A stretch of DNA of 64,000 nucleotides, taken from NCBI RefSeq assembly GCF_003860405.1, contig NZ_CP034170.1, positions 744,001 through 808,000 of the forward strand, given 5' to 3'. How positions within the stretch are numbered: the stretch's first letter is position 1; every line of letters begins with the position of its first letter. The DNA comes from Nakamurella antarctica (GTDB taxonomy: Bacteria; Actinomycetota; Actinomycetes; Mycobacteriales; Nakamurellaceae). The translations under genes were made by a program, and so were the position numbers. A model generated the notes under the pieces. That model had not been told where the DNA came from. It made no database searches and saw nothing but the letters and a program-made list of their open reading frames with translations. Positions 42,236 to 60,898 of the stretch are shown here, in pieces.

Positions 42236-43859
42236 TGTCGCTCCTCGATCACCGCGGTGTATCAAAAACAAGCATCGTGAGACCACCTCTCAGCCAGGCC
42301 GCGCCACACCGCTCCCGCAACGCCGGCGGCTCTGTAGCTACTTCGTCAGCTGTTCCAGCGCCTTCTCGGTCTTACTCCCGCCCAGCTGTGGCAGCTGCCC
42401 CGGCTCCCGAGTTCGACTGGCGTCGGGCGTATGTGCGTCGTCTGTTGGCCACGGACATGCTTGTCATCGTCTGGGCCATTGCGGGCGCGCACCTACTGCG
42501 CACGTCGATGCGGTCGGCATCGCCGATAGTTGACCCCTTTGGTTTCGACTTCCTCGCTGCCAGCGCTCTCGTAGTGGGACTGTGGGCACTTTTCCTGGCG
42601 GTTCTCAACTCCAGGGACTCACGCGTGGTCGGATTTGGATCTGAAGAGTACAAACGGGTCCTGAATGCAACATTTATCGTATTTGCGCTGGTATCGATGT
42701 CGGCGTATCTGTTCGGCTTGGATATGCCGCGGAGCTACCTGCTACTCGTGATGCCCGCCGGCCTGCTCGGTTTACTCCTCGGCAGGTATGTCTGGCGACG
42801 GTGGCTGCATCTGCAACGAGATCGCGGAATGTACTCGGCAAATGTACTTGCAGTAGGCAACCTGGAAACCGTGAGCCAACTCGTCTCGGAATTACGTCGC
42901 TCACCGCGCGCGGGCTATCGCATCGTTGGTGCGTGTGTCACCCAAGGCAGCAAAGCCGCAGATGCTGCCCGCTCCGCGGTGCAATCTAACCGCTTTGTCG
43001 AGGGCGTGCCGGTTTTGGGATCACTCGATCAGATCGTCAGCGCGGTGCGTCTGGTCAACGCTGACGTGGTCGCGGTCACGGCCACGTCTGCCTTCGGGCC
43101 GGCGGCGGTTCGTAAATTGAGCTGGGATCTAGAAAAACTGCCAACCCAGTTGATCTTGGCTCCAGCTTTGACAGATATTGCAGGGCCCCGCATTCACACC
43201 CAGCCTGTTGCAGGTCTTCCATTGATACACGTGGAGCGCCCCACCTACAGCGGGCCCACCCGAATTTTGAAGAAGGCTTTCGACGTAGTCGGCAGTATGA
43301 CGCTGTTGCTGATTTTCAGCCCGTTGATGTTGGGGCTGGCGATGGCGATCAAGACGGGCAGTCCCGGGCCGGTCTTTTTCCGTCAGGAGCGCGTCGGTGT
43401 TGACGGTGGTCGCTTCAGGATGGTCAAGTTCCGCTCGATGCGCGTGGACGCAGAGGCGCTCCTGGCGGACCTAAAAGCGGAGCAGCGTGATGCCGGGAAC
43501 GACGTCCTCTTCAAAATGAAGGACGACCCCCGCATCACGAAGGTCGGTAAGCTCATCCGCCGATACAGCCTCGACGAACTTCCGCAGCTGCTCAATGTTC
43601 TCAAGGGCGAGATGAGCTTGGTGGGACCGCGTCCCCCCTTGCATCCGAAGTGGCGATGTACCGCCATGATGTTCGCCGTCGACTCCTCGTGAAACCAGGA
43701 ATGACGGGCCTGTGGCAGGTCTCGGGCCGCTCGGATCTGACCTGGGACGAAAGCGTGCGCCTCGACCTCTCGTACGTTGAGAACTGGTCCATCACGGGTG
43801 ACTTGGTGATTTTGTTCAAAACCGCCAAAGCGGTCATGTCTTCGAGCGGTGCTTACTAA
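42235..43859 (+). pseudogene. Initiating polyprenyl-phosphate sugar-1-phosphate transferase, frameshifted
   Basis: As written, the frame from the ATG at 42235 stops at 43692 and a second frame continues to 43859. Joined by adding one C to the C6 run at 43633-43638, they give a 541-residue WcaJ/CpsE-type transferase: membrane helices at about 60-170, a nucleotide-binding-like central domain, and a C-terminal sugar-transferase domain (GPVFFRQERVG, FRMVKFRSMR, SLDELPQLLNVLKGEMSLVGPRP, then VKPGMTGLWQVSGRSDLTWD). It would start the repeat unit on undecaprenyl-phosphate. The break falls just before the essential C-terminal motif, so the truncated form should be inactive. The rest of the gene looks fully conserved, so a sequencing error or a slippage switch is more likely than old decay. 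Confidence 0.85.
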
Positions 43860-44260: not shown

Positions 44261-46639
44261 ATGTACGTGCGAGCGAGATGGCTACACACTGCAATTGCGG
44301 CAGTAGTGACGATAACGGTATTGGGCCCGGGACCAGGTGCCGTGGCCGAAACACCGGATATCCAGCAAAGCGCGCCAACGCAGGGCACCAATGAGCAGGT
44401 AGCCGAGTATTGCCTGCGCCCCGTGGCAGATTTGCTCCCCGCGGGCTCGCAGTGGTCGTGGCAGTTCGATAAGGATGCCCCTCCCTCCACTTGGTCGGCC
44501 CAGGGATTTGACGATTCAGCATGGTCAGTGGGGCCAGCGCCGCTCGGATTTGTGGCCAAGGGGATCGCCACCGATGTTTCTGCGAAAACGACTCGACCGG
44601 GACCGCGAGTTGCTTACTTCCGGTCGAAGTTCGAAGCGCCGAAGCTGCCGCAGGGCGCTTCCATTGTGGTGAACACGGTGGCCGATGACGGACTCATTCT
44701 GTACGTCAATGGTCAGGAGATCGGAAGATCCAACGTGATCAGCGGCCCAGATTCCCACGATCTTTTCGCCAGTTCGTCTTTCTTCGGGCCGGTGACCTAC
44801 ACGATCCCCGCGTCCCTACTGCGCGTGGGCACCAACGACATCAGCGCCTCCGTCCACCTGAACTTCCGGGCGACACGAGCGATCTCCTTCGATGCTCGGG
44901 TGCAGATTCTGACCCCCGACTTCTCCACGCCCCCACAATCTGAGGCTTGTCCGATAGCCGCAACTGAGCTGCTTGCCGCTGGTTCGACATGGTCGTGGCA
45001 GTTCAAGACTTCGGCGCCGGGCGGTAACTGGGCCGGAGTTGGGTTTGACGACTCGGCCTGGTCGACAGGCCCCGCGCCGCTGGGTTTCGCGGCGAAAGGT
45101 GTCGTCTCCAACATCGCCCCTAAGGGTGTGCGTCCTGGGCCACGGGTAGCTTATTTCCGGAGTGATTTCACAGCGCCCGCGCTCTCCGGCACCGAGTCGG
45201 TAGTGGTCAACACTGTCGCCGACGACGGGGTGGTGATGTACGTCAACGGGGTCGAGGTTGGCCGCTCGAACGTGATTGCTGGCCCGGACTCGAACATGTT
45301 GTTTGCCAGTACGTCCTACAAGGGACCCGTTTCCTTCGATATCCCCGTAGCGCTCATCCACGAGGGCCAGAATACGATCAGCGCGTCAGTCCATCTGAAC
45401 TATCGGGCCACGAGGGCAGTGGCCTTTGACGCTGAAATCGAAATGTTGACGCCTGCTGCGGCTCCTCCCGCGGCGCCGACCAGCCCCACACCGGAATCTG
45501 TCGCACCTTCCCCGGAAGCCAGTGCGTCAACTGAGCCGCCAACTACAGCGCCCGCAACCACTACGCAGATCAACGAAACACCTACGTCCAGTGCCGCTAC
45601 GGCCTTGACGTCGGAATCGCCTCTGAGTGAAGCCGTGCCCCAGACTGGCGCTCAGACGACTGGCGCTCAGACGACTGGCGCTCAGACGACTGGCGCTCAG
45701 ACGACTGGCGCTCAGCCCCCAGTCTCTGCGGTTCCTGCCGCGCCGGCAGCTTCGGCAACGTCACCGGAAACTATCCAGGTCAGCGGGGCGAGTTCAGCTG
45801 CCCCCTCGACCACTATCTCCTTAGTACCCGCCACCAGTTCCACACTGGGGGCGCCGCCACCGGCAGATCCGGCGGTGCTGGCGAATTGGGGCGCCCCGGT
45901 ATTTCGGGACGAGTTCAACGCCACCACGGTGGACTCGACCAAGTGGCGCGTTCGCGACAAAACTCGCCTAGCCTACGATCAGGCGATTATTTCAGCGTCC
46001 CAAGTCAAGGTGGCTAACGGCAACCTCAGTATTGCCACCCAGTGGCTTGCCAATCCTGTTCTCGGCACGGAACGCCCGAGGTACTTCAATACCGGGTACA
46101 TCGACACCATTGGGCTATTTTCGCAGCGTTACGGGCGATGGGAAATGCGTGCGAAGCTGCCGTTGGTGACGGGGGCCTCAAGAGGCATCTGGCCCGCCTT
46201 CTGGCTTCGAGACTCTCGCGGGTTGGGTGAGATCGACATCATGGAGGCGATCGGCGCTCCCCACGACCAGATGGGGTCGCAACCCGAGGGCACCTTTTCC
46301 AGCACCGTGCATCAGTCCACCAACCACGAAGCTGGCACAGTCAGAGTCAGCACTTTGAATAAAAAACTTCCGACTGTAATAGGCGGCTACCACACGTGGG
46401 CGCTGGAGTGGGACCCTGCGGGGATGCGCTTTTATTACGACGGTGCGCTGGTGTGGGCGCCGACTACCAAAGACAACCCGTGGTTCAACACCGCGTTTAC
46501 CGATGCAGGGGTCAATATTCGCATCGATACACAGGTTGGGTTTTGGTGGATGGGGTACGCAGATCCGCTCCACAAGGAATGGACTACCGATGCGTCCTAC
46601 GATATCGACTACGTCCGGGTGTGGAAATACAATCCTTGA
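44261..46639 (+). CDS. Secreted GH16 glycoside hydrolase with two N-terminal jelly-roll-like modules
   Basis: This exported protein of up to 792 residues has a signal peptide (cleavage near AVAET), two ~165-residue modules (about 55-220 and 228-400) with the shared pattern F/WDDSAWS-GPAPLGF...VADDG...YVNG.E..RS...HLN, a Pro/Thr/Ser/Ala linker with a 15-bp repeat, and a C-terminal GH16 catalytic domain (about 545-792). The GH16 nucleophile/acid-base motif is GEIDIMEAIG, after GIWPAFWLRD. GH16 enzymes cut or transfer beta-1,3/1,4-glycans such as laminarin, agar or succinoglycan-type polymers, so it may trim or release the polymer made here. The start may be the GTG at 44267, which has GAGG at the better spacing. 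Confidence 0.88.
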   Translation: MYVRARWLHTAIAAVVTITVLGPGPGAVAETPDIQQSAPTQGTNEQVAEYCLRPVADLLPAGSQWSWQFDKDAPPSTWSAQGFDDSAWSVGPAPLGFVAKGIATDVSAKTTRPGPRVAYFRSKFEAPKLPQGASIVVNTVADDGLILYVNGQEIGRSNVISGPDSHDLFASSSFFGPVTYTIPASLLRVGTNDISASVHLNFRATRAISFDARVQILTPDFSTPPQSEACPIAATELLAAGSTWSWQFKTSAPGGNWAGVGFDDSAWSTGPAPLGFAAKGVVSNIAPKGVRPGPRVAYFRSDFTAPALSGTESVVVNTVADDGVVMYVNGVEVGRSNVIAGPDSNMLFASTSYKGPVSFDIPVALIHEGQNTISASVHLNYRATRAVAFDAEIEMLTPAAAPPAAPTSPTPESVAPSPEASASTEPPTTAPATTTQINETPTSSAATALTSESPLSEAVPQTGAQTTGAQTTGAQTTGAQTTGAQPPVSAVPAAPAASATSPETIQVSGASSAAPSTTISLVPATSSTLGAPPPADPAVLANWGAPVFRDEFNATTVDSTKWRVRDKTRLAYDQAIISASQVKVANGNLSIATQWLANPVLGTERPRYFNTGYIDTIGLFSQRYGRWEMRAKLPLVTGASRGIWPAFWLRDSRGLGEIDIMEAIGAPHDQMGSQPEGTFSSTVHQSTNHEAGTVRVSTLNKKLPTVIGGYHTWALEWDPAGMRFYYDGALVWAPTTKDNPWFNTAFTDAGVNIRIDTQVGFWWMGYADPLHKEWTTDASYDIDYVRVWKYNP
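45644..45715 (+). repeat. 15-bp tandem repeat in the GH16 linker
   Basis: ACTGGCGCTCAGACG is repeated 4.8 times without change, encoding Thr-Gly-Ala-Gln-Thr units in the linker before the GH16 domain. Copy number changes would alter only linker length. Confidence 0.95.
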
Positions 46640-46700
46640 CAGTGAGGGCGGCCTCGGAATAGTTGCAAGTGGCCCACTTGTGATGTGATCGATTCGGCGA

Positions 46701-47468
46701 ATGCGAGTGCGTGTAATGGTGGGGACGGCCGCAGATTCCGCGGATAAATTGTCGTATTCAGCGGCCGTCAGACAGCTCGCCCATGCGCAAAAGCCGGGGC
46801 TGGGAGTTCCGGCGTACACGCGCTGGGTGAATAGGCGGATGGCAAAGTATGTCGCGGCCCTCGCCTACCGCTGGGGCTTGACACCCAATATGGTGAGCGT
46901 CATTAGCGCAGCGATATCAGCGGTCGGAATCACGGTTCTTGTGCTGATCCGGCCTACCTGGTGGAGCGGGGTGGCTGCCGCTGTGCTCTTCGCGTTCGGG
47001 TATCTTCTCGACTCTGCAGATGGTCAGGTAGCCCGCTTGACGGGTCGATCGGGTCCGGCGGGGGAATGGGTCGATCACGTGGTTGACGCGATCCGGATTC
47101 CAGCCATCCACCTCGCGGTCATGGTCGGAATCTTTCGGAGTGCAGGTCTGCCGGATTGGACGCTGGTGCTGCCGATTCTGTACTGCCTCCAAGCGGTAGG
47201 GCTGTTTATGAGTCAGATTTTGGCAGAGCAACTTTCAAAGTTCCATGGGCTCGCAGTGACCGCGCCGGGGACCGGGCGGCGCCAATCCTTCGTGCTGATC
47301 CCGACGGATACGGGAACTTTTTGCTGGCTGTTCGTGGCCTGGGGCAATCCACAGTTATTTCTCTGGCTCTACGCGGCGATGCTGGTTGTGAACTCCGCGC
47401 ATGCAGCGATATCCATGCGACGCAAATACAAGAAATTGCTTCAAATAGGCAGTCCCACAGCCGGGTAA
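46701..47468 (+). CDS. CDP-alcohol phosphatidyltransferase family protein
   Basis: This 255-residue membrane enzyme has the full family motif D-G-x2-A-R-x8-G-x3-D-x3-D, seen here as DGQVARLTGRSGPAGEWVDH followed by VVD. These enzymes transfer an alcohol or phospho-alcohol from a CDP-linked donor. It has about six helices. In this setting, with a TagD-like cytidylyltransferase in the same cluster, it may use a CDP-alcohol to make a modified lipid or to add a phospho-alcohol to the polymer (inference). An alternative start is the ATG at 46716. Confidence 0.87.
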   Translation: MRVRVMVGTAADSADKLSYSAAVRQLAHAQKPGLGVPAYTRWVNRRMAKYVAALAYRWGLTPNMVSVISAAISAVGITVLVLIRPTWWSGVAAAVLFAFGYLLDSADGQVARLTGRSGPAGEWVDHVVDAIRIPAIHLAVMVGIFRSAGLPDWTLVLPILYCLQAVGLFMSQILAEQLSKFHGLAVTAPGTGRRQSFVLIPTDTGTFCWLFVAWGNPQLFLWLYAAMLVVNSAHAAISMRRKYKKLLQIGSPTAG

Positions 47469-47517
47469 ATCAGTTCCGTCCAATCGTGATCCCTCTAGCA
47501 GCGAAGGACTTCTCCTC

Positions 47518-48444
47518 GTGACTGCACCTGTTAACCCACCTCTGGTGAGCGTGATCATTGCTACTCGCGGGAGGCCCGAACTGTTGAGGGTGGCGGTGCG
47601 AGCCATTCTTGCCCAAGACTATGAGGGTCCTATCGAGTTGATCGTTGTGTACGACAACATTGAAATCGATCGGCTTGGCGATATCGAGGTTCCAGCGCGG
47701 CGGAGCCTGACCACGATCTCCAACGCCCGGACCCAGGGTCTGGCCGGTGGGCGTAATACCGGCATCGAAGCTGCTCACGGCGAATACGTAGCGTTTTGTG
47801 ATGACGATGACCATTGGTTGGCCCCGAAGCTATCGCGGCAAATGGCCATCTGGGAATCTGACCCACACGCCGCCCTCGTCGGGTCCGGCATTCGGATCCA
47901 CACCGAAAAAGGCGAGCATGTTCGCCTTCCGCCCCGTCGGGTGATGTTCGCCGACTTGCTCAAGTCCCGGATTACCGAACTGCACCCTTCCGGGTTTTTG
48001 ATGCGACGGTCCGGCTTGGTTTCGGGGTACGGGTTGGTGGACGAGGAGTTGCCGGCGTCCTACGGCGAGGATTATGACCTCCTACTTAGGGCCGCTCGCA
48101 CTGGTCCCGTGCTCAGTGTTACCGAGCCGCTGGTAATCGTTAACTGGAACCGGCCCTCCTTCTTCTCCGGCAAATGGGAGGGGATCGCCGCAGGGCTGAC
48201 CTATCTCTTGAACAAGTTCCCAGAATTCGAGACCAGTCCCGCGGGCACCTCGAGGATCGCCGGCCAGATCGCCTTTGCACATGCAGCGCTGGGTAATCGA
48301 CCGGCGGCGAAGAAATGGGCCAGACTGGCAATCGGTGGTGACCGACGTCAATTGCGCGCCTACGCTGCCTACGCGGTGGCGGCGCGTCTGGCTCCGGCGG
48401 GCCTGATGGTTCGACTCGTCAACCTTCGCGGCCGCGGACTGTAA
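47518..48444 (+). CDS. Glycosyltransferase family 2
   Basis: This 308-residue GT-A fold enzyme starts SVIIATRGRPELLRVAVRAI and has the nucleotide-binding Asp region FCDDDDHWLAP (a DxD-type motif) near residue 102. There is no membrane segment, so it works at the inner membrane face on lipid-linked repeat units. The start is a GTG after TTCTCCTC with a poor ribosome-binding site, 49 bp after the CDP-alcohol gene. The sugar is unknown. Confidence 0.88.
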   Translation: MTAPVNPPLVSVIIATRGRPELLRVAVRAILAQDYEGPIELIVVYDNIEIDRLGDIEVPARRSLTTISNARTQGLAGGRNTGIEAAHGEYVAFCDDDDHWLAPKLSRQMAIWESDPHAALVGSGIRIHTEKGEHVRLPPRRVMFADLLKSRITELHPSGFLMRRSGLVSGYGLVDEELPASYGEDYDLLLRAARTGPVLSVTEPLVIVNWNRPSFFSGKWEGIAAGLTYLLNKFPEFETSPAGTSRIAGQIAFAHAALGNRPAAKKWARLAIGGDRRQLRAYAAYAVAARLAPAGLMVRLVNLRGRGL

Positions 48445-48476
48445 GCAACCCGGAACATCAGAGAGGGTTCTGCCAT

Positions 48477-49385
48477 ATGCCGCTTCTCAGCGTCCTATTG
48501 CCAGTAAAGAACGGCGACCAGACCATTGAAGGCGCCGTACGTTCCACGTTGCGCGGGATGCCCAAAGATTCGGAACTGGTCGTATTCAATGATGGCAGTA
48601 CCGATAGAACTGTCAGCAAATTGGCTACCATCGTCGATTCCCGGCTCCGGATAGATAGTTCCGACGAATCTCGGGGCGTGGCTATGGGGTTGAATCATTT
48701 GCTGGAAATCACCGACAGTAAATATGTGGCCAGAATGGACGCTGACGACTACAGCCTGCCGTGGCGGTTCATCCAACAGCTCCACGCCTTGCGCTCTGGA
48801 ACCGATGTGGTCTTTACCCACCGAGTTGACTGGCGACCCGAGCGAAAGCGTGTCACACCGACGGCCCCGCTCGCGATCAGCGACCGCGCTTTCCCGTACT
48901 ACCTGATGTTGTCGAATCCGGTTGCTCATTCGACAATGGCCGCGTTGCGGCAAACGGTGGTCTCGGTGGGTGGCTACCGAAACGTACCCAGCGAAGACTA
49001 CGATTTGTGGCTCCGCCTTGCCGCAGCCCGCGCGGACCTGCGAAGGCTTGCGTTGTGGGGTTTGGCCTATCGACTGCACCCGAGCCAGATCACCGCGTCG
49101 ACCGAGTGGCGCCACAGGTCCTGGTCGGATCCCCTTATCGCAGAGGCTTTCTCGTTGCTCTCTGTACAAAGATTGGGGGAGCCCTCTCGCCGGTTGGTCG
49201 CTATCGGTGCGGACCAGGCGACACCACAGGCGGACCTGCTGCGCGAACTGGGGGAGTTCGGACGCCGATTCAAGGCGGCAATCCACCATCTTGAGCGTCC
49301 CGAACGCTACCTGGTGAAACGAAAACTTGCGCAAAGAATCACAGACGTTACGACGGCAGTAATGAATCGGGCTGCAGTTTTGTGA
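48477..49385 (+). CDS. Glycosyltransferase family 2
   Basis: This 302-residue GT-A enzyme starts PLLSVLLPVKNGDQTIEGAV, has VVFNDGSTDRTV and the donor-site VARMDADDYSLPWR near residue 85. The GAEDYDLWLRL-like acceptor motif is seen as PSEDYDLWLRLAA. It lies 32 bp after the previous GT2 gene. Its last 38 bp overlap the 3' end of the convergent polymerase gene. Confidence 0.9.
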   Translation: MPLLSVLLPVKNGDQTIEGAVRSTLRGMPKDSELVVFNDGSTDRTVSKLATIVDSRLRIDSSDESRGVAMGLNHLLEITDSKYVARMDADDYSLPWRFIQQLHALRSGTDVVFTHRVDWRPERKRVTPTAPLAISDRAFPYYLMLSNPVAHSTMAALRQTVVSVGGYRNVPSEDYDLWLRLAAARADLRRLALWGLAYRLHPSQITASTEWRHRSWSDPLIAEAFSLLSVQRLGEPSRRLVAIGADQATPQADLLRELGEFGRRFKAAIHHLERPERYLVKRKLAQRITDVTTAVMNRAAVL

Positions 49386-50700
49386 GCTGGTTGGCGCTCG
49401 CGATGCGGGGGCGGATGAGTACGCCAGCGCAGATCATGACAATGCAGAGCCCTGTTCCGATGATGCCGTAGAAGACTATTTCCACCAGCGAAACGACGAT
49501 GGCGGTGTTCATTGCCAACCCAATTCCGCTGTGATGCCTGCGGGTTCTGACTACGGCCCAGATTAACGCCCCTACAAAAAACGCAGCGGCCGGAAATCCG
49601 TGGGAGAACAGGACCATCCACAATTGTCCCTGCGTCCCTGCCGAAGGGATGCCGGCGGATACGGACGGCCGGGGCGCTCCGTAGCCGAAGATCGGGGACT
49701 CCAGCGACCGTGCCAAAGTTTCGCCGTACAGGCTGGCTCGATCGGCGGTGGTACTGCTGGTATCCAACCGTTGCGTCAGTCTCTCGGAAATTGGGAGCAC
49801 TAGGAAGGCCAGACCGACGAGAACTCCCAGCCCTAGCAGCCCGGAGATGACCCGAAATCTCCCCACGGCAACCGAGCGGATCGCAATGTAGAGCGCCGCG
49901 ACCCCTAGTCCGACAAACATGCCGCGGTTCAGGGTGAGGAAAGCTGGCACCAAAGAAAGCGGGAGTGCCGCGAGCAGCCACCAGAATTTCCACGTACCCC
50001 GGACCGCAAACATGTACGCAATGACTATGGGCGTCAGAATCGAGTAGGCGTTCCCCCATGCGTTCGTGTACAGGAAAGGGGCGCTGGGTCGGGGGTCGAA
50101 CATGAAATATGACTCGGGGTTGAACTGCGTGACGCGTCTGAAGGCCATTTCTCGCACGAGGTCGTTGGTCAGCAATGATTGCGGCAAAATGAATGCCAGG
50201 GGAGTCTTGAAAGACAACAGTGGCGCGAACACACCCAGGTATCCGCCCGCGGTGATAACCAGCCAAAAGCTGGTTAAGACACCTGCTGCGTACTGAACTG
50301 TCACAGCAGCGCGAGCGTTGTAGACATAGATAAAAACCACGGTGGCCGCCAGATACAGCGCCGCACGATAGACGAACCCGATCAGCCGGGGAAAGCTGTC
50401 GATTTCGATGACAGAGGCGACCATGCAGATGATGAACAGCAGCCAGATTCCGAGTCCTCGAGGCACCCGGACGGAGCGGCCGCGGAGCAAATAAAAGCTC
50501 ATCAGGATCGCCGTCACCGGCCAGATCATGTCGCCAAGGCCGAGAACCCACCACAGTGGATAGCCGGCGAGGGGCAATGCGAGCGGCCAAGTGGGAAAGA
50601 CACGCGGGTGGGACGGTGAATCGAGGAAACTTGTGCCGCCCAGGTTTTCACTGCCCACGACTGTGCGTGCCAGCGGGCCAGTGGTGGTGTGGGGTTTCAC
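49348..50700 (-). CDS. O-antigen ligase/Wzy-type polysaccharide polymerase
   Basis: This protein of about 450 residues has some eleven hydrophobic helices (LPLAGYPLWWVLGLGDMIW onward) and a large outer loop before the last helices (about residues 315-360) with RASLYGETLARSLESPIFGYG, the pattern of the O-antigen ligase / WzyC family. It would polymerise repeat units outside the membrane. It is on the opposite strand to its neighbours, convergent with the GT2 gene (38-bp overlap) and divergent from the Wzz gene. The frame is open to 50814; the GTG at 50700 is a reasonable start but neither has a strong ribosome-binding site. Confidence 0.85.
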   Translation of the reverse strand: MKPHTTTGPLARTVVGSENLGGTSFLDSPSHPRVFPTWPLALPLAGYPLWWVLGLGDMIWPVTAILMSFYLLRGRSVRVPRGLGIWLLFIICMVASVIEIDSFPRLIGFVYRAALYLAATVVFIYVYNARAAVTVQYAAGVLTSFWLVITAGGYLGVFAPLLSFKTPLAFILPQSLLTNDLVREMAFRRVTQFNPESYFMFDPRPSAPFLYTNAWGNAYSILTPIVIAYMFAVRGTWKFWWLLAALPLSLVPAFLTLNRGMFVGLGVAALYIAIRSVAVGRFRVISGLLGLGVLVGLAFLVLPISERLTQRLDTSSTTADRASLYGETLARSLESPIFGYGAPRPSVSAGIPSAGTQGQLWMVLFSHGFPAAAFFVGALIWAVVRTRRHHSGIGLAMNTAIVVSLVEIVFYGIIGTGLCIVMICAGVLIRPRIASANQLTKLQPDSLLPS

Positions 50701-50921
50701 GTCATCAGTTTGTACCTCTTCTGGCGCGCTGGCGAATCTGTTGCCCGTTACCCCGCGGACGTAAAAGCGATGGGGCGGGCGACAGAATACGGAGGAGTAC
50801 AGAACGCGCCCCACAGCTTCTGAGGATGACCAGACAGCGCGTCTTAATGAGGGACAATGGAGGACGACGCGAAGCTGGGCGAGTAAGGCTGACGGCGTTC
50901 GATATCAGGGAGCAGGGTGAT

Positions 50922-52976
50922 ATGGGCCAGCAGGATGAACGCAACGAGGTTCGCGTGGGGGAGTATGCCGCCATTTTGTCCTCGCGCTGGCGTGTGCTGG
51001 CAGTCCTTTTTGTGGCGGGCATCGTCGTTGCTCTCGGCTATCTCGTCTTTACCCCCAGCGCTGTCACTGCATCTACGCAAGTCAACGTCTTCGTGATCTC
51101 AACGGATCCGTTTAATCCATCGAAGTCCGCTTCGGGGTTGCTCGACGGTGCGACAGAGGAGCAAATCGCAACCTCTTATGTCGTGAGTTCGCTTGCGGTG
51201 CAACAGATGTCTACTAGCCGGTCTATTGGTGAGGTCCGTGACCACCTAGAGGTGACAACAGTTCCCGCCGCCACGGTGCTGCAATTCAACTACACCGATT
51301 CCACTGCTGAGCAGGCGCGCTCAGGCGCGGATGCACTGGCAGCTGCGTATCTCAACTTTCGAGCCACCGAGGCGCAGGGGCGCGTCAACACTACGGTGGA
51401 CGCCATCGACAAGCGGGTGGCCGAGCTTCGCAAGTCTCTGACCGAAACCAACACTCGCGCCGGTTTTGCCGCGCCCAACAGCACGAGGGCCAACCAGGCA
51501 GCGAGCGACCGTGAGCTTGCCACCAGTGAAATCAACAGTCTGCTCACCCAGAAAAGCACCCTCGAGCGGATAGACACCACTGGTGGTTCCGTCCTCTCGC
51601 TTGCAGCCGAGAACGCCGTAGTGAGCGCCCCGAACGCAGCTACCGTCCTAGCGACCGGGGGCATAGCAGGGTTAATTTTAGGTGTAATCCTGGCGTTTGT
51701 GGTCAATGCTGTTGACCGGCGACTGCGCAGCCGGCGAGATGTCGAACGCGCTACCAGGAGGCCGATACTGGCAGAATTAACGTTGCAAGAGGGCACATTG
51801 CCCGCCTTTGGTGCTGATCACGAGGCTTTACGCCTTGCTCGCGAGCGCATCATTTCCACGATGCCGAACAGCGTCGGCGTGATCGTCTTGTTCGAGGCCA
51901 CCGGCGCGAAACTCTCGGACGTAGGTTTGAACCTTGCACTGGTCCTGTCGCAGGGAGGGCGCGAGGTTGACCTCATTATCCCAGCGGCGGCGACCAACTC
52001 GATCGACCGGATCATTGTCGCGCTCGACCTGATGCCTGCCGAGGGCGGGCAAGGCCGCCTGTTCCGGTCCGACAAGGCCCCCTCGCTCAACTTGTTATTT
52101 TCGGCTGCGGGTACCGACTTTTCCGACGCGGATCACATCTTGACGGATGAGGTCAAAGGCCGCATTGCGCGCAACCGCGCTGACCGCTTGATGGTCTTGG
52201 TGCTGCCCTTCGACACCGAACACGCGACTCGCATTGCCACGCAGCGTCTGTGCGACGCCTTGGTGGTGGTGATCGAGAAAGAAGCCGCGACATCGACGTC
52301 AATTTCTGATCTGGTAACGGAGTGTGAGCAGGCGGGGGTAGTGGTGCTCGGCTCGCTGATCGTTCCGCGGGGGCGTATTTGCAACTCGGTTGCGCCGAGC
52401 CACGCCGCTATTCGAGCCTCGAACTTGGCGCGTTCGGTGGCCCATTATCGGTCCGAGGCCGTCGCGCAGGCGCTGTTGGAAAATCACCACGACACCAGTC
52501 CCGAGGACACCGATATGTCTTCAGGCAGAGCAGCGGTCAACCATGGCTCTTTTGGCGACCGCGCCTTGGGCGACCGACCCCGTGACCATGATGACTTTGA
52601 TTACCAAGCATTCGACGACAGCTCTTTCGGGGGAGAGGTGGCCCATCACCCGCCCGCTGAAGCCGCGACACCGGACCCCAGAGCAGACGAGACTGAAGAC
52701 CACAGACCCGTCATGGCGGCATCAGCTGGCGCATCTGAAGCGGGTGATGCTGAAGCGAGTGATGCTGAAGCGGTTGATGCTGAAGCGGGTGATGCTGAAG
52801 CTGGGGATGCCGAAGCGGGTGATGCTGAAGCGGGTGATGCTGAAGCGGGTGATGCTGACCCGCAGCCAGAGGCCATCCGGAGGCCATCGAACGGACCCAC
52901 CCCCACAACGTCGAATACCCGACGAGTATCCGGTCGTAGCCCGGCTGGCGGTAGGTCACCCCGGAAGCGCCGCTGA
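50922..52976 (+). CDS. Wzz/Wzc-like chain-length protein with a degenerate kinase domain and acidic repeat tail
   Basis: This 684-residue protein has the Wzz layout: helix 1 (RVLAVLFVAGIVVALGYLVF, about residues 25-45), an outside domain with coiled-coil heptads, and helix 2 (VLATGGIAGLILGVILAFVV, about 240-260). A cytoplasmic domain then resembles a bacterial tyrosine kinase (BY-kinase) but the Walker A position reads FEATGAKLSDVGLNLALVL instead of a GxGKS/T loop, and no C-terminal tyrosine cluster is present. The tail has eight DAEAG-type repeats and ends in an Arg-rich RRVSGRSPAGGRSPRKRR. The ATG at 50922 follows GGGAGCAGGG. The stop overlaps the next start (TGATG). Confidence 0.82.
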   Translation: MGQQDERNEVRVGEYAAILSSRWRVLAVLFVAGIVVALGYLVFTPSAVTASTQVNVFVISTDPFNPSKSASGLLDGATEEQIATSYVVSSLAVQQMSTSRSIGEVRDHLEVTTVPAATVLQFNYTDSTAEQARSGADALAAAYLNFRATEAQGRVNTTVDAIDKRVAELRKSLTETNTRAGFAAPNSTRANQAASDRELATSEINSLLTQKSTLERIDTTGGSVLSLAAENAVVSAPNAATVLATGGIAGLILGVILAFVVNAVDRRLRSRRDVERATRRPILAELTLQEGTLPAFGADHEALRLARERIISTMPNSVGVIVLFEATGAKLSDVGLNLALVLSQGGREVDLIIPAAATNSIDRIIVALDLMPAEGGQGRLFRSDKAPSLNLLFSAAGTDFSDADHILTDEVKGRIARNRADRLMVLVLPFDTEHATRIATQRLCDALVVVIEKEAATSTSISDLVTECEQAGVVVLGSLIVPRGRICNSVAPSHAAIRASNLARSVAHYRSEAVAQALLENHHDTSPEDTDMSSGRAAVNHGSFGDRALGDRPRDHDDFDYQAFDDSSFGGEVAHHPPAEAATPDPRADETEDHRPVMAASAGASEAGDAEASDAEAVDAEAGDAEAGDAEAGDAEAGDAEAGDADPQPEAIRRPSNGPTPTTSNTRRVSGRSPAGGRSPRKRR
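52738..52859 (+). repeat. 15-bp tandem repeat in the Wzz-like gene
   Basis: About eight copies of a GCGGGTGATGCTGAA-type unit, some with one or two changes, encode Gly-Asp-Ala-Glu-Ala. The perfect copies are grouped at the 3' side. Confidence 0.95.
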
Positions 52977-53731
52977 TGCACGAGAAGAATAAATCTGTTG
53001 AAGTAGTCGGAGTCCGAGTGGACAACTTCACCATGGATCAACTAGTCGACCAGCTGTTGGATTGGACAACGCTGCCGGGTCTCCATATTGCTGTGGGCGT
53101 CAACGCGCACGTGTGTAACCTAGCCGCAAAGGATCAAGCCTTTAGGGACCTTGTCCAGGCCTCAGATCTCAATTACGCAGATGGGCAATCGGTGGTGTGG
53201 GCAGGTCGCTTGTTGGGCGGCGATGTTGGCGAAAGAATCGCTACCACTGATCTCGTATTTCCGTTAGTCCAACAATGCGCCGCACACAGCAAACGTATTT
53301 TTCTTTTCGGCGGCAAGCCGGGGGTAGCAGAACTAGCTGCAGCACGATTGCAAAAATTTGCCCCCGGCCTTCAATGCAGCACTTCGGATGGCTACGTCAG
53401 TAAAGAAAACATGCCAGCCCTGATCGACAAGATCAATAATTTCGGCACCGACGTTTTGTTGGTGGGTCTCGGAGACCCGTTGCAGCAGGAGTGGGTTGCC
53501 AACTCCCGTGGCCAGCTGTTGGTTCCGGTTGCGCTTACCTGCGGCGGCCTTTTTGATTGGACCAGCGGCCACAATAAGCGCGCGCCCCGATGGATGATTG
53601 CGGCAGGTTTGGAGTGGCTCTGGCGGCTCGCACTCGAGCCCCGACGATTAGCAAAGCGCTATGTGGTGGGCAATCCCGCCTTCGTCTTCAGGTTGGTCAA
53701 ACAAATACTGTCGAAAAAGTTCCAGGACTGA
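52976..53731 (+). CDS. WecG/TagA/CpsF-family glycosyltransferase
   Basis: This 251-residue GT26 enzyme has the family core: VNAHVCNLAAKDQAFRDLV, the SDLNYADGQSVVWAGRLLGG motif with the catalytic Asp, KRIFLFGGKPGVAE and LLVGLGDPLQQEW. Family members add ManNAc or similar sugars to a lipid-linked primer (TagA, WecG). It is translationally coupled to the Wzz-like gene through TGATG. With the TagD-like gene it gives this cluster a teichoic-acid-like flavour. Confidence 0.92.
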   Translation: MHEKNKSVEVVGVRVDNFTMDQLVDQLLDWTTLPGLHIAVGVNAHVCNLAAKDQAFRDLVQASDLNYADGQSVVWAGRLLGGDVGERIATTDLVFPLVQQCAAHSKRIFLFGGKPGVAELAAARLQKFAPGLQCSTSDGYVSKENMPALIDKINNFGTDVLLVGLGDPLQQEWVANSRGQLLVPVALTCGGLFDWTSGHNKRAPRWMIAAGLEWLWRLALEPRRLAKRYVVGNPAFVFRLVKQILSKKFQD

Positions 53732-53751
53732 TATCTCGCTGTTGCCGGTTC

Positions 53752-54629
53752 TTAGCAATCAGCGTTATCTGGGAACGTGTGCTCGCTGAGAATCCATTTG
53801 TTGTCAATGAACTTCATAACGTAGATGTTGAGGCTCCGTGCGGGGGTTCCAGCGTTATCCAGCGGAAGATCCGAGTCGTCAAAAATGCGAACAGAGGACG
53901 AATCCAAGCACACCTGAATCTTCATGCTGGGGGGATCCGCATTCAGTGCGACATCCGAGATAGCCAATGACGCGATAGTAGGAACACCCTCCTGACGCCA
54001 GCCGTTATTGGCGAATTCAGCAGCATTTGCTTGGAGTTCGCCCAGCAAAGCGCCAGTCGCTATGGTGCTCAGCGAAGCAGTGTCGCCAGTGCCGTTGACC
54101 AAGTCGACCGCACTGCCCAGCACGTCGCCGACCATCGCCGACGCCTGGGGAGTGTCGGGGGGTTGGAAACATTCGGTGGCGCCGCCACTGTGGTCGATTC
54201 GCTCGACGCTGGATTGGCTGGGGCTGCCGACGCTTCGACTGCTGGTGACCCTTCGACGGACGTCACGGAGGCGGGGGCTGACGCCGATCCGCCGCCGATC
54301 TCGGTGGGAATGGATTCGACTGTAGTGAGAGCGGAATTGGTCGCCAGCGAACTTGCTGCCTCGGTCGGCGCAGTGGTATCTGATGACGTCGCGGAATAGG
54401 TCACGACCGTGGGGGTGCTATCTGCGGAATCACTTTTTTTGTTACTGACCACGATCACCACCACTACTGCAGCGACAACCACCAGTGCGGCGGAAGCGGC
54501 AATAGCAATGGTCTTTGAAGTGGAGCGGCCAGGAGCTCGATGGGAGGCTCTGGTCTGCTCCTCAGCCTTTTCTGGAATCTCAGGATTGACCGCTGCATCC
54601 AAGGGCGGATTTTCCTCGTCATAGTCCAT
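53752..54629 (-). pseudogene. Membrane-anchored protein with NTF2-like outer domain, frameshifted
   Basis: The frame from the ATG at 54629 stops at 54069 and a second frame covers 54135-53752. Adding one base to the G6 run at 54157-54162 (C6 on the coding strand) joins them into a 292-residue protein: an acidic cytoplasmic N-terminus, one membrane helix (AIAASAALVVVAAVVVVIVV), a long Ser/Thr/Ala/Pro linker, and a C-terminal alpha+beta domain (MVGDVLGSAVDLVNGTGD to FPDNADC) like Mce-associated or NTF2-like exported proteins. It lies on the minus strand, convergent with the TagA gene. Function unknown; the position suggests a role with the polymer machinery. Confidence 0.7.
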
Positions 54630-54744
54630 CGTGATGCTCCGTACCGTTGGTGTATCGCAGGGGGATTACGGCACTACTATCCCAGAAAACTAATTTTTAC
54701 TTCCTCGCCGCAGCCTGCCGGGCGAGGCGAGGCGAGGAAGAGCC

Positions 54745-56280
54745 ATGTCGAAGACGGTTGACGCCGAGGACTCACAGAGAGGTTCTGAGTCCGGAAGTCT
54801 TGCACGGGGGGGACTCGCGAGCTTCGGCGGCGCAGCCATCAGCGCTGTGATGGGGTTTGCTCTGACTTTTGTTTTAGCTCGTGGTCTGGGCGAAGCTGGC
54901 TCGGGTGTCGTGTTGCAAGCGACGGCGATATTCGCGATCACCGTCAGCATTGGCAAGCTCGGGATGGATTCGGCCGCAATTTGGTTGATGCCGAGGTTGT
55001 TGGTCGACGCACGTTCGGAGATTCGTTCCGCGGTCAACTTCCTGTTTGCGATCAGTGCTGCCGCCGGGATTCTGGCGGGAATTTTAATTTCACTCGTGGG
55101 TCCGGTAGTTATCGGTGATTCTGCAGTTGAGTCTCGAGAATTAGGCTCTTCGCTGGTTGCCCTGGGCTGGGCAGTTCCAGTTGCAGTGCTTGTCCTGGTA
55201 GCTCTGGCCGCAATTCGCGGACTCGGCAAGTTACTGCCGTACGTAGCAATTGGGAGCATCGCGCTTCCGGCGGCGCGTCCAATCGCTGTGCTTCTGAGCC
55301 TGTGGTTTGCTGGCTCGGCGTTGGCAGCCGTCTGGGCGTGGGCGGCCCCGTTGCCGTTTGCGCTTGTGGGCGCTCTTGTTCTGCTCGGAGTACAGATCCG
55401 CAAGCTCACTGCAGGCACCGATCGCGGCCGCAGAAAGAACTGGCCCAGTCGCGAGCGACGTTCGCAGATCTTAGGTTTCGCTCTGCCGCGGACACTATCC
55501 GCGGGGCTGGAGCAATCCCTGCTGTGGCTAGACCTCATCCTGGTAGGCGCGCTAGCGGGGGCGTCGGCGGCTGGCATTTATGGCGGCGCGAGTCGATTCA
55601 TCGCCGCGGGCTTGATCGTCGACACAGCTTTACGGGTAGTGGTCTCACCGCAGTTCAGCTCTCTGCTTCATCGCGGTGACATCCCCGGCGTGCAAAGGCT
55701 TTACGGGACTGCGGCCACGTGGCTTGTGCTCTTCAGTACTCCTATTTACATCGTGCTTGCCATCTACGCGCCGACAATCCTCGGTTGGCTGGGTCCGGGA
55801 TTCGCGGCTGGCTCACATGTTCTTGTCATCCTGTCGGTGGGCGCAGTAATTACGTTTGCGGCGGGGAATATTCATTCCGTGCTCTTGATGAGTGGCCGCA
55901 GTGGCTGGGCGGCTTTCAACAAAGCCATAGTCCTTGCCGTCAATGTTGCTGGCAACCTGGTCCTCGTCCCCGTGATGGGAATCGAGGGGGCGGCGTTGAG
56001 CTGGGCGGCAAGCATGATGATTGATGCCTGCATGGCCGCCTTCGAGGTCCACCGTTTTCTGGGAGTCAACGTGGACGCTTCTGCAGTGGCGTACGGGCTG
56101 CTCGTGCCCAGTATGTGTGTGGGGATCCCAGCAGGTGTTTTTCGAACCTTTTATGGATCACACAATTGGACGCTGGCTCTGAGCGTCGCTCTCGGCGGGG
56201 TGCTTCTAGCAGTGTGGTGCCGTCTGGATGCGCACAAGCTCAAGCTCAGCGATCTCCGGGCGAGGCCAGGACGAGGATAG
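54745..56280 (+). CDS. Wzx-type polysaccharide flippase (MOP superfamily)
   Basis: This 511-residue protein has about fourteen hydrophobic helices with the family opening SLARGGLASFGGAAISAVMG and FVLARGLGEAGSGVVLQA. It would flip the lipid-linked repeat unit across the membrane for polymerisation. GAGGAAGAG lies 2 bases before the ATG, inside a short run of GGCGA units. It is transcribed divergently from the frameshifted NTF2-like gene; 115 bp separate the starts. Confidence 0.88.
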   Translation: MSKTVDAEDSQRGSESGSLARGGLASFGGAAISAVMGFALTFVLARGLGEAGSGVVLQATAIFAITVSIGKLGMDSAAIWLMPRLLVDARSEIRSAVNFLFAISAAAGILAGILISLVGPVVIGDSAVESRELGSSLVALGWAVPVAVLVLVALAAIRGLGKLLPYVAIGSIALPAARPIAVLLSLWFAGSALAAVWAWAAPLPFALVGALVLLGVQIRKLTAGTDRGRRKNWPSRERRSQILGFALPRTLSAGLEQSLLWLDLILVGALAGASAAGIYGGASRFIAAGLIVDTALRVVVSPQFSSLLHRGDIPGVQRLYGTAATWLVLFSTPIYIVLAIYAPTILGWLGPGFAAGSHVLVILSVGAVITFAAGNIHSVLLMSGRSGWAAFNKAIVLAVNVAGNLVLVPVMGIEGAALSWAASMMIDACMAAFEVHRFLGVNVDASAVAYGLLVPSMCVGIPAGVFRTFYGSHNWTLALSVALGGVLLAVWCRLDAHKLKLSDLRARPGRG

Positions 56281-56446
56281 TCTGCACGTTTGGGGGCATC
56301 ACTGTTGATTCCTGTGAGCAAACGGTAACTCTCTGTCCGTATTGCGCAAATTGACACGATTGCTTATGCTCCATTTGGGTGGTAACAACCTCACAGCATG
56401 CACATGCTGTAGCAAGACTGCCCCCGAAGACAGGATGGAGCGCAGC

Positions 56447-59400
56447 GTGCGATTACGAAAGTTCGGACTAGCAAGTGCTTTGATGGCCGCTGCCGTAGTG
56501 GCCCAAGGCTTTTTCTCGGTGTCCGCCTCGGCTGACGCCGTGGTAGCCGACGGGACGAGCGCCGACCGCGCTGCCCCCTCCTGTTGGGACATTAAGCAAA
56601 ACATCCCGTCGAGTGTTGATGGCCCGTACTGGCTTCAGACCCCGGCACTACAAGCACCACAACGCTTCTACTGCGATATGACTTATGACGGCGGCGGCTG
56701 GGTGATGATCGGTAAGGGTCGCAACGACTGGCAGGACAACTACCTGGGCCAGGGCGATCCGGCTGATCTCTTGACACCGAATCGATCCCCCGCAGGCTTC
56801 GGCATGGTTCAACTGGATTCCCGGACTGTTGATGGGTTGCTCAACAAAACCCGCGTCGACTCACTCACCGACGGAGTTCGTGTTCTGCGCGCGAAGGACC
56901 CGAGCGGCAGTACATGGCAGAACGTGACTTTCGGATGGGCCAATCGGGATCGCTGGGTCTGGACCGTTCCGGCCGGTCACTCCACGCAATGGTTTGAATT
57001 TGATAAGAGCGGCAAGGTCAACGGCGGCGCCACAGCCAACTTCGGCCTGGATAGCGGATACCTGAGATCCACCTTCAGCTACACCCTCTCGCAGAAGTGG
57101 GTTGCTGGCTTTGCTTACGGCCCTAGCGTCACCACCGGGTCGAATAACGCGAGCACCTTCATGTGGTCGGCGCTCGCAAACGGTGGATCACCCATTCCCT
57201 ACGCCGAGGTCTACGTTCGCCCGAAACTGCGCGCGGCCGACGTGAGCTACACGGCTATCCCTGACGCAGGCACCGAAGCCACTGCGCAGAAAGCTGTGGC
57301 GAGCTCGTACTCGCTGCCAGGGAGTTGGGGCGTCATTGGGCGTTTTAATGGTCGGACGGCAGAGGGCAACTCGGAGGTCCAGTCTTTCGGACAGATCGGC
57401 GACGTTGTCTATGTCGCAGGTAACTTCCAGTTTGTTCAAAAGGGAGCCAACGCGACAGGTGCGAACAAAGTAGAGCAACCAGCCCTGGCAGCATTCAACT
57501 CCACCACTGGCGATTTCATCCCCACGTTCAAGCCGACCTTCAATGGCCAGGTCAAGTCGGTCCTCGCATTACCCAACGGCAAGCTCCTGGCAGCTGGCGA
57601 ATTCACTATCGCGAACGGACAGCCCGCGAAGGGCACCGTCCTTTTGGAGCCCGACACGGGAAAATCAGTCAGCTACTGGAATCTCCAGATCGAAAACCGT
57701 GTTTCCGGTGGAGCATTGACCATTCGCGACATTTCGATTTCTGGTGATTACGTCTACCTCGGCGGGGCCTTCACCCACCTGACAGGTGGCACACGCACCA
57801 CGGCGATCTACTCCCGCAATGCCGCCCGCATCCAGTGGGCCACGGGGACGCCGGACAGCGGTTGGAACCCTGAGTTCAACGGAACCATCATGGATACAGA
57901 TGTGAGCCCCGACGGCACGCGGATGTACGCCGCGGGTTACTTCACCAGCTCGAAGGGGGTGCCCGCACTGAAAGCGGCCGCGGTGCAGACCGTTTCCGGC
58001 GCCCCCCTGGCTACCCCCACATGGGCCCCCGTGTGGAGCAGCAATGGAGCCAATTACCAGCAGGCAATCCGCGCGGTCAACGACAAGGTGTACGTCGGAG
58101 GGTCAGAACACTCGATCTTCGGCTTCTCATCAACGACCTTCGCCAAGGTCAACGGCACGACCATGCACGGTATCGGCGGTGACTTACAAGCCATCGATAC
58201 CTCGGGGACTGTCGTTTATGGCGGATGCCACTGCGGAAGTTGGGCCTATCAAAACTCTCTTACCTGGCCAGACCCCGGGTACAACTGGAATCAAGCTGAC
58301 AAGATCCAGTGGATCGGTGCATGGGACTCCGCCACGGGTGAATTCATCCCCAGCTTCAACCCGCCAGGACTGTCCAGCGCTAACGCAGGTGTGTGGGCGA
58401 TTTTCGTCGCCAAGGATGGAACCGTTTGGAGTGGCGGCGATCTGACGGGAACTCGCACGAGTCCCACGGCCAGCCAATGGGCTGGTGGCTTCGTGAGATT
58501 CCCCTTGAACGACCACACTGCACCAAGCGCACCCACGGGACTTCGCAGCACTGGAACCACACCGACGACCGTGAATCTGGCGTGGTCCGGGTCTACTGAT
58601 GCGGCAGGCCCAGTCACCTACGAGATCCTCCGCAACGACAGGGTGATCGCCACTACCACCACTTTGACCGCGACCGTTTCCGTAGTGAGCAGCGCAGATC
58701 GATTCTTTGTTCGAGCCATCGATGCGAGCAACAATCGCTCTGCCAGCAGCGCGGTGCTCGGAACTCCGCCACCGCCGGACCCTCAACCGCAGCCCGGAGA
58801 TCCCAATCTCATCCCTGCCGGCTCGCAGTGGGCTTATCGGAATCAAGCAGCTGCCCCCGCAGCTGACTGGAAGGCGACATCTTTCGATGACAGCACGTGG
58901 ACCGTGGGTGCTGCGCCCTTGGGCTTTGGAACCACCGGATTGCTTACCAACATCGACGTTCCGGCGCCAACCTCAAATCGCGCGGCGGTCAATTACTTCC
59001 GACGTTCGTTCACTGTTCCCAACGCATCAACTGTTCAGTCGCTCACGTTGACCACACTGGCTGATGACGGCGAGGTCGTCTACGTCAACGGATCCGAAGT
59101 GGCACGTACCAGAGTGTCAGCAGGAGCCGTCGGCAATACGACCTACGCCAACGCCTCGATCTCGACGACGGCCGCACGCGCCACTCCTGTCGTGATCCAG
59201 GTTCCTGTGGAACTGCTCGTCAACGGTAAGAACACCGTCGCGGTAACTACGCACCTGAACTACAAGTCCACATCGAACATGAGCTTCGAGCTTTCGGCTG
59301 TGGCAACGTACAAGACGCCTGTTGTGCCGCCGGTTGTGCCGCCGGTTGTCCCGCCGGTTGTGCCGCCGGTTGTGCCGCCGGTTGTCCGCCGGTTGTGCCG

Positions 59401-60030
59401 CCGGTTGTGCCGCCGGTTGTGCCGCCGGTTGTGCCGCCGGTTGTGCCGCCGGTTGTGCCGCCGGTTGTGCCGCCGGTTGTGCCGCCGGTTGTGCCGCCGG
59501 TTGTGCCGCCGGTTGATCCGCCGGAAACGGTGGTAAGTGCGGGAGACCAGTGGTCATATCTTTACAATCCGGCCGGCCCGGCCGCCGACTGGAGTGGCAC
59601 CGCCTTCGATTCCAGCAGTTGGTCCACCGGAGCGACACCGATCGGATTTGGAGCCACCGGTATGGCGACCGATATCAATGTGCCGGTAGCCAATCGGACA
59701 CCAGTGGCGTATTTCAAAAAAACCGTGAACATCACGGATGCCCCCAGCGTCATGGGATTCACCCTCACAACCGTTGCCGACGATGGCGTTGTCGTCTACG
59801 TGAACGGCACCGAAGTGGGACGCACTCGAGTGTCAGCCGGACCGATCACCAACGCGACGTATGCCAATGCTGCGGTGAATACCACCGCTGCGAACGCCGC
59901 GCCAATAGTGATCAACGTTCCAGTCGACCTTCTGGTCAGCGGAGCCAACAGCATTTCCGTTTCAACACATTTGAATTACAAGAGCACGCCTAATATCAGC
60001 TTTACCATGTCGGCATCTCTCATACGCTGA
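56447..60030 (+). pseudogene. Large secreted surface protein (fibrinogen-like, propeller, FN3, two modules), frameshifted
   Basis: The frame runs from the GTG at 56447 (GGAG 6 bases before it) into a 12-bp repeat, where a unit lacks one base at 59381-59387; reading continues out of frame to 59536. Restoring one base gives 1194 residues ending at 60030. Order: signal peptide (cleavage near ASADA), fibrinogen-like domain (SCWDIKQ, then FYCDMTYDGGGWVMIGKG), a ~430-residue beta-propeller-like region, a fibronectin type III domain, module 3 (about 785-960), a Val-Pro-Pro repeat linker and module 4 to the end. Modules 3 and 4 match those in the GH16 protein. The loss would remove module 4 and add an Arg/Cys-rich tail. 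Probably an adhesin or polymer-binding protein. Confidence 0.8.
59319..59520 (+). repeat. 12-bp tandem repeat (Val-Val-Pro-Pro) holding the frameshift
   Basis: About 17 copies of GTTGTGCCGCCG (a few with GTC) form the linker between modules 3 and 4. One unit at 59381 reads GTTGTCCG, one base short. The array is long enough for frequent slippage or misassembly. Confidence 0.95.
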
Positions 60031-60097: not shown

Positions 60098-60574
60098 ATG
60101 AACCTGCGCGAGGACATCAGAGTTAATCGAGGTCAGAGCAAGGGGCAGTTTGTAGTGGTCTGCTTTCGCATCGCGCATCGTCTGAGGACCCCACTAGATG
60201 TGCGACCACGGATCTATGCCATCGGAGTGGGTATTGCCTACAGACTCCTCGTTGAGTGGATCTTGGGTGTCGAGATTCCGTGGAAGACCCGCATTGGCCC
60301 CGGACTCCGGATCTTTCATGGGGTGGGCATCGTCATCAACGATCGCACCGTTATTGGTAGCAATGTGTCCATCCGCCAAAACGTCACCCTTGGTAATAAA
60401 GGAGCAACCGGTCCCTGCCCCACGATTGGCGACAACGTGCAACTCGGAGCAGGGTGCATTGTGATCGGTGGAATCACCATCGGCGATGGAGCCGTCGTCG
60501 GGGCTGGCGCGGTGGTGACGAAAGACGTGCCCGCTGGCGCGACCGTCGTCGGAAATCCTGCGCGCATTCTCTAG
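60098..60574 (+). CDS. Left-handed beta-helix acyltransferase (serine acetyltransferase-like)
   Basis: This 158-residue protein has an N-terminal helical part and a C-terminal hexapeptide-repeat domain (IFHGVGIVINDRTVIGSNVS, then TIGDNVQLGAGCIVIGGITIGDGAVVGAGAVV and VVGNPARIL). The active His is probably in FHGVGIV. Related proteins O-acetylate sugars in polysaccharide clusters, or serine in cysteine synthesis; the location favours polymer modification. GAGGA lies 5 bases before the ATG. Confidence 0.88.
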   Translation: MNLREDIRVNRGQSKGQFVVVCFRIAHRLRTPLDVRPRIYAIGVGIAYRLLVEWILGVEIPWKTRIGPGLRIFHGVGIVINDRTVIGSNVSIRQNVTLGNKGATGPCPTIGDNVQLGAGCIVIGGITIGDGAVVGAGAVVTKDVPAGATVVGNPARIL

Positions 60575-60898
60575 TACGCCCCTTGAATAGGCCTCAGGTC
60601 TAGGTGGCGCTTGGCTGCCCATAATTCCTGAAGGTACCCGGTGCTTGCTTACCGTAGGCCGGACATAACAGGTGGTTACCGATGCTCGCTGCAGAAAGTC
60701 TCATTCGAGTGAATTAAGTGGATTTGATAGGATCCAATGCTCTCTTTGAGTGATAATGAATATGGCATAAGAGGCTGTTGCGACACTAAGGTGGTCGCGA
60801 ATCCTCGCTTCGAGGGTAATAGCACCGAAGTTGTCACTCCCTTGATCTCGACCTGAATTTGCTTCGTGCATACGGCTAGCAGTGAAGGAAACTCCACC
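60575..60898 (+). other. AT-richer noncoding region before the TagD-like gene
   Basis: This 324-bp gap is noticeably AT-richer than the genes around it (for example 60690-60780). No gene or strong hairpin is seen. It probably contains a promoter for the cytidylyltransferase-VanZ-mazG run. Confidence 0.4.

Follow-up and report, generated by a model that had tools for sequence, protein, structure and literature searches.

A module shared by two predicted secreted proteins of a Nakamurella antarctica polysaccharide cluster, and its cluster-associated subclade in related actinobacteria

The window analyzed here is a stretch of 64,000 nucleotides from Nakamurella antarctica (contig NZ_CP034170.1, positions 744,001 to 808,000), within which positions are counted from the first letter. 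It contains a polysaccharide cluster in which a module of about 165 residues occurs four times in two proteins of secreted appearance, a GH16 enzyme (modules M1 and M2) and the product of a fibrinogen-like gene (M3 and M4). Modules from clusters of this type form one subclade, with characteristic residues, of a much broader family. On balance, we favor the reading that the module is a carbohydrate-binding-type domain, that an actinobacterial subclade of it is adapted to the polymer of Wzx/Wzy-type clusters, and that it would hold both proteins on that polymer.

All four copies are encoded on the forward strand. M1 (44426..44914) and M2 (44960..45457) precede the GH16 domain, while M3 (58802..59308) and M4 (59524..60027) come last in the fibrinogen-like gene; the initial annotation, which described one module occurring twice in each of these two places, agrees with these positions. 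That a single module is involved is borne out by all six pairwise local alignment scores (305-574), each of which exceeds every one of 300 shuffles per pair (top shuffle, 70). BLAST E-values are at most 6.3e-63 within one protein and at most 2.7e-37 between proteins, with identities of 64% for M1-M2, 57% for M3-M4, and 36-41% between the proteins. The motif order of the initial annotation, running from AGSxW to SF, is kept across 41 columns invariant in M1-M4, but single letters vary: M4 has AGDQW, M1 and M2 have GFV and GFA respectively, and M2 has AF in place of SF. A signature important below reads HLNFR in M1 (44855-44869), HLNYR in M2 (45392-45406), and HLNYK in both M3 (59252-59266) and M4 (59968-59982). 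The statement that two copies end the fibrinogen-like protein needs qualification, as M3 and M4 are both there but M4 is out of frame with M3 in the assembly and lies in a separate open reading frame (ORF), 59395-60030.

The GH16 protein (44261..46639, forward strand, 792 residues by ORF) consists of M1, M2, a repeat-rich linker that includes a 15-base tandem repeat of TGAQT units (45643..45715, forward strand), and the GH16 catalytic domain, which matches Pfam Glyco_hydro_16 at 53.3 bits against a cut-off of 22. The GH16 catalytic motif is E-x-D-x-x-E, and the window protein shows EIDIME in the GH16 alignment, as do the proteins from loci L107, L234 and L235 in relatives. The fibrinogen-like gene (56342..59536, forward strand, likely start ATG 56435) encodes, in order, a GGGWT fibrinogen-like domain, a DUF5122-type propeller, FN3, M3 and a frameshifted repeat linker. 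It matches NCBIfam GGGWT_bact (NF040941) at 69.5 bits, with a cut-off of 30; matches to DUF5122, Fibrinogen_C and fn3 fall under the Pfam cut-offs, and the FN3 stretch matches 1k85. By eye, the start of the GH16 protein is signal-peptide-like, and both proteins look secreted.

A scan of public genomes found 93 relatives, 80 of which were kept; profile iteration yielded 157 rows of modules, partial ones included, from 95 ORFs. In a quick tree of 89 modules, one group with SH-aLRT support of 97 holds the modules of window-type clusters. It includes 40 of 41 rows from fibrinogen-like proteins (the row from L036 is outside), all four GH16 rows, one row from a propeller-only protein and one of the three rows from L030; these last are labeled "other" in the tree and come from distant fibrinogen-like proteins. 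The association with clusters was examined using a query made of the fibrinogen and propeller part with no modules, and so independent of any polysaccharide gene (alignment A3, 11 rows including the window's). It matches 4 of 396 genomes from the phylum, the organism's own included, 15 of 249 from the family of genome G294 and 29 of 245 from the family of genome G251; within the window's own genus, one of 17 genomes, its own, has the fibrinogen-like protein. The 42 loci compared represent 40 family-level genomes out of 44, G715, G722, G852 and G860 being left out; G151 was also omitted, as were second places in G776, G829 and G841. As a control, 20 arbitrary 20-kb stretches were taken from 20 of the same genomes.

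Searched by blastp with ten polysaccharide proteins from the window (E 1e-5, at least 60 residues), 40 of the 42 loci have from 3 to 9 of the ten families, and L163 and L181 have none. Among the controls, 19 of 20 have no such family and one has 1, so that none of the 20 reaches 3. The tie between the window subclade and polysaccharide clusters is real; the polysaccharide link drawn in the initial annotation holds for this subclade, whereas the wider family is mostly found on other secreted proteins. The module is present at 40 of the 42 fibrinogen-like loci, a share that is possibly somewhat inflated because the A3 rows were first found via the module.

The 46 fibrinogen-like ORFs at these loci carry no module in 6 cases, one in 21, two in 18 and three in 1, so that 40 of 46 carry it. 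The last module ends 0-6 residues from the ORF end in 38 of these 40 (one of the 38, L181, has its ORF cut by a contig end) and 67 and 77 residues from it in the other two. A test of the module as an always C-terminal sorting or anchoring signal failed, for in the window, L107, L234 and L235 it precedes the catalytic domain. A CDP-alcohol transferase gene occurs at 31 of the 42 loci and, counted by eye, each time directly neighbors the fibrinogen-like gene among the genes tracked; in the window the two do not adjoin. Propeller-only secreted proteins bearing the module lie beside the fibrinogen-like gene in L178, L179, L180 and L184, and their modules, save one from L180, fall in a different branch of the family. 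Four clusters (L177, L108, L192 and L195) have tandem fibrinogen-like genes, and in the last three of these the first gene is without a module and the second has one.

Residues specific to the subclade were sought by comparing 86 distinct cluster modules with 116 others, the propeller-only modules of the other branch being placed in neither set. Column 150 is aromatic in 96% of cluster modules versus 1% of the others, preceded in cluster modules by N in 87% and followed by R in 82%. Column 112 is aromatic in 95% of cluster modules versus 26% of the others. The equivalents in M2 are Asn380, Tyr381 and Arg382, and Phe348, and these four residues are the best candidates for ligand contacts.

The GH16 partner is less regular at the same loci. 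GH16 profile matches occur at 11 of the 42 loci and in 0 of the 20 controls; of the 11, the match at L197 is weak, with no Pfam match, and at L202 the fetched stretch stops within the gene, short of where a module would be. Taking about 15 kb more on each side of 20 clusters out of the 42 (11 kb on one side for G571) added GH16 genes in G610 and G495, and in G541 a GH16-like gene that is farther off and may not belong. GH16 proteins carry the module in G294, G610 and G495, where the fibrinogen-like proteins have two modules each. These three genomes repeat the window's pairing, in which both proteins bear the module, and represent two additional genera from a different family. The GH16 protein from G571 has Pfam CBM_4_9 at 86-213 and GH16 at 304-511, the carbohydrate-binding module occupying the slot of the window modules, and that from L108 has a membrane-anchored look by eye.

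In a tree of catalytic domains, from which L202 was left out as too short and L169 as a copy of L229, all five module-bearing GH16 proteins among 15 make up one clade (95/96). The module tree favors two origins of the GH16 fusion, with an approximately unbiased test giving a single clade p-AU 0.033 for 6 rows in a group picked post hoc; with 4 rows the value is 0.123. One fusion of GH16 and module kept in several lineages is a simpler reading than repeated independent fusion.

The module is probably a galactose-binding-like beta-sandwich, judging from partial profile matches; no Pfam family was found to cover it whole. At E 0.01, matches among 84 modules are to CBM-like (10), BetaGal_ABD2 (7), BetaGal_gal-bd (3) and Laminin_G_3 (2). 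The window GH16 protein itself narrowly passes the cut-offs of BetaGal_ABD2 (26.5 vs 23, best stretch 108-185, in M1) and Laminin_G_3 (28.6 vs 27.6, at 310-343, a 34-residue piece of M2). For a profile built from the 84 modules, the nearest solved chains are carbohydrate enzymes: the rhamnosidase 3w5m (E 1.8e-12), which we take to be SaRha78A, the sialate acetylesterase 7kmm, and the beta-galactosidase 8q2h. By profile, the sugar-binding-type domains of the rhamnosidase and of GH2 beta-galactosidases share the FDDSxW and NG core, but only part of the module matches, the 3w5m alignment spanning just positions 6-114 of 164 over that core.

On the reading favored here, the cluster would make and export a polymer by means of its sugar transferase, glycosyltransferases, flippase, and Wzy-like and chain-length-like proteins. 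The module at the C-terminal end would retain the fibrinogen-like/propeller protein, acting as a lectin-like matrix protein, within the polymer, and the module ahead of the catalytic domain would keep a GH16 glycanase, one that may trim the chain or set its length, on the same polymer.

Several observations weigh against this reading, in addition to the possible inflation mentioned above. The whole-protein Pfam matches are marginal, with M4 under the cut-off and M2 by itself giving nothing at E 0.01, and FDDSxW-type domains of GH2-type enzymes are often structural. Only 3 of the 13 GH16 genes at the 42 loci carry the module, the others having none in the stretches fetched. The signature may be explained by shared descent instead of ligand contact. 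The family as a whole is broad: 45 non-actinobacterial carriers, taken one per locus at no more than 1450 residues from 67 loci, match CotH (20), lamin tail (18), metallophosphatase (6) and PhoX (4). Actinobacterial copies too are found on phosphatases (L014, L028, L065, L111) and on CotH (L110). Six of the 396 phylum genomes have the module, and in three of these (the organism's own, G251 and G294) it occurs in this cluster type, while the other three lie outside it; G306 has the module on a protein with FN3 and a propeller-like part, G195 on CotH and G262 on a phosphatase. A blastp search for the window's ten polysaccharide families, with its proteins as queries against flanks reaching at most 8 kb around non-actinobacterial copies, gave one acyltransferase match each at L029 and L031 and nothing else; polysaccharide genes of other kinds would escape such a search. 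Profile matches across the whole family thus fall mostly outside polysaccharide loci, as the CotH and lamin-tail counts show, and the module as a whole family is not a polysaccharide-locus module. Because it sits outside the subclade on CotH, lamin-tail and phosphatase proteins, sugar binding need not hold for the whole family. The initial annotation suggested that the modules bind the cluster's polymer or dock to each other; the link between subclade and cluster and the recurrent pairing speak for that suggestion, but the breadth of the family and the scarcity of module-bearing GH16 genes speak against it.

Of the alternatives, the one that survives best, though we think it rather unlikely, is that the system is decaying in this genome, the modules being relics and the polymer no longer made, which is compatible with any function in relatives. 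Frame breaks in the assembly bear on it directly. The linker between M3 and M4 is an array of 12-base repeats encoding PPVV units (59316..59524, forward strand) with 16 unit starts and hence 15 spacings, 14 of them of 12 bases and one, from 59381 to 59392, of 11. The loss of one base there shifts the frame, so that the fibrinogen-like ORF 56342-59536 ends in shifted repeat and M4 falls in another ORF; the frame of M4 is open to the module's end. The sugar transferase gene 42235-43692 shifts frame near its 3' end, and its C-terminal part goes on in another frame to about 43860. A fifth copy of the module, outside the cluster at genome positions 2187309-2187800 (L012 9310-9801; the genome is 3.38 Mb in one contig), has TAG in frame near the module start. 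It is on a second GH16 gene, where it is followed by a GH16 domain 69% identical to that of the window. The standing of this genome as the only one of 17 in its genus with the fibrinogen-like protein also fits decay. On the other side, besides the open frame of M4, the other cluster genes listed below appear as single open frames, and single-base differences can be assembly errors; the breaks in the window cluster and in the fifth copy may be either decay or such errors.

Programmed frameshifting in the repeat linker was considered as a recurring feature, prompted by two overlapping frames in L020. It was ruled out: the L020 repeat contains an N, L023 is situated where a contig stops, and a single frame runs through 18 ORFs with two modules and one with three. 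In L201 (13848-14885), the second module of the fibrinogen-like gene is in another frame, like that of the window.

A further alternative, which we regard as unlikely, makes the module a docking or assembly domain that builds a surface complex, the modules binding each other or a shared non-polymer surface component such as a wall glycan or lipid-linked glycan. The tandem modules in 18 of 46 fibrinogen-like ORFs would suit this, as would the presence of modules on different proteins of one cluster, including the propeller-only proteins in L178, L179 and L184, and an anchor would be expected at the C-terminus, where the module sits in the fibrinogen-like protein. Within 20 kb, however, 34 of 40 module loci (32 after the extension of G610 and G495) have the module on one ORF only, so that a second partner protein is not seen, and a pure C-terminal sorting signal would not precede the GH16 catalytic domain. 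Equally improbable is a ligand-free structural spacer of beta-sandwich type, spread by domain shuffling among secreted proteins, which would account for a broad family on unrelated secreted proteins and for family-wide conserved residues (W, W, DDG, NG) that look like core positions, but not readily for one subclade tied to polysaccharide clusters with an aromatic and N/R signature of its own, nor for a known carbohydrate-binding module in the same slot in G571.

The polysaccharide genes of the window run on the forward strand except where noted. An initiating sugar transferase-type gene (42235..43692, Pfam Bac_transf) comes before the GH16 gene, which is followed by a CDP-alcohol phosphatidyltransferase (46701..47468, Pfam CDP-OH_P_transf), two GT2 glycosyltransferases (47518..48444 and 48477..49385) and, on the reverse strand, a Wzy/O-antigen-ligase-like membrane protein (49348..50814) whose Wzy_C match of 24.6 bits is under the Pfam cut-off of 31.7. 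A chain-length (Wzz)-like protein (50556..52976) is named by its shape and has homologs in relatives; no Pfam match was found for 50898-52973. Its acidic tail contains a 15-base tandem repeat of AGDAE units (52735-52858), which, with the arrays at 45643 and 59316, is the third minisatellite among the cluster genes. A WecG/TagA/CpsF glycosyltransferase (52976..53731) and a Wzx-type flippase (54745..56280, Pfam Polysacc_synt at 43.6 bits vs 28.2) precede the fibrinogen-like gene, and a hexapeptide acyltransferase (60098..60574) and a cytidylyltransferase (60866..61345, Pfam CTP_transf_like) come after M4. When the cluster was tested as a Wzx/Wzy type, the flippase, the glycosyltransferases and the initiating sugar transferase family were all above their Pfam cut-offs.

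The flanking genes at 36563-40195 and 61903-62682 are presumably mfd and mazG, from their appearance; L022 likewise has an mfd-like gene, about 5 kb away from its fibrinogen-like one. At the cluster end, 61348-61896 presumably encodes a VanZ-like small membrane protein. VanZ proteins have been proposed to act on lipid-linked glycans (PMC12419801).

Comparison with described systems places the window proteins near, and outside, several of them. ExoK is a glycanase of GH16 type. In Sinorhizobium meliloti, low-molecular-weight succinoglycan is reported to depend on ExoK and ExsH (PMC4916376). The likeness is that of a glycanase tied to an exopolysaccharide system, and trimming by the window GH16 protein is proposed by analogy with the action of ExoK and ExsH on succinoglycan. 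The window protein differs in carrying two N-terminal modules and in falling far under the NCBIfam equivalog cut-offs for ExoK (18.8 vs 350 bits) and EglC (45.6 vs 700 bits). The CotH, lamin-tail, PhoX and metallophosphatase carriers from Verrucomicrobia, Planctomycetes and others have the same module with the same core residues, but carriers of this type are without the aromatic and N/R signature. Intelectin and fibrinogen-like lectins (4wmq, 6usc) match the fibrinogen-like protein over about 50 residues of its N-terminal domain, in the GGGW stretch only. No literature was found on a fibrinogen-like protein in actinobacterial exopolysaccharide clusters, in a search whose coverage excludes most subscription journals. 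Although the sequence family itself is not new, the subclade found in polysaccharide clusters and marked by the fibrinogen-like protein was not encountered in the literature searched.

More broadly, and tentatively, actinobacteria may have a recurring, undescribed Wzx/Wzy exopolysaccharide cluster with a secreted fibrinogen-like/propeller lectin as its hallmark, often beside a CDP-alcohol phosphatidyltransferase, in which the module would represent a novel family of carbohydrate-binding domains, specific to this class of polymer, that directs both the matrix protein and the depolymerase to a common chain. The fibrinogen-like protein, the module-bearing GH16 enzyme and the CDP-alcohol transferase make a tractable protein set for a polysaccharide system present in several actinobacterial families, and a module with so clear a residue signature can be tested for binding. 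Were the proposal true, the module and the enzyme might provide means of tagging and cutting these polymers, and the system would show how a producer could retain its own matrix protein and its own depolymerase on its own polymer.

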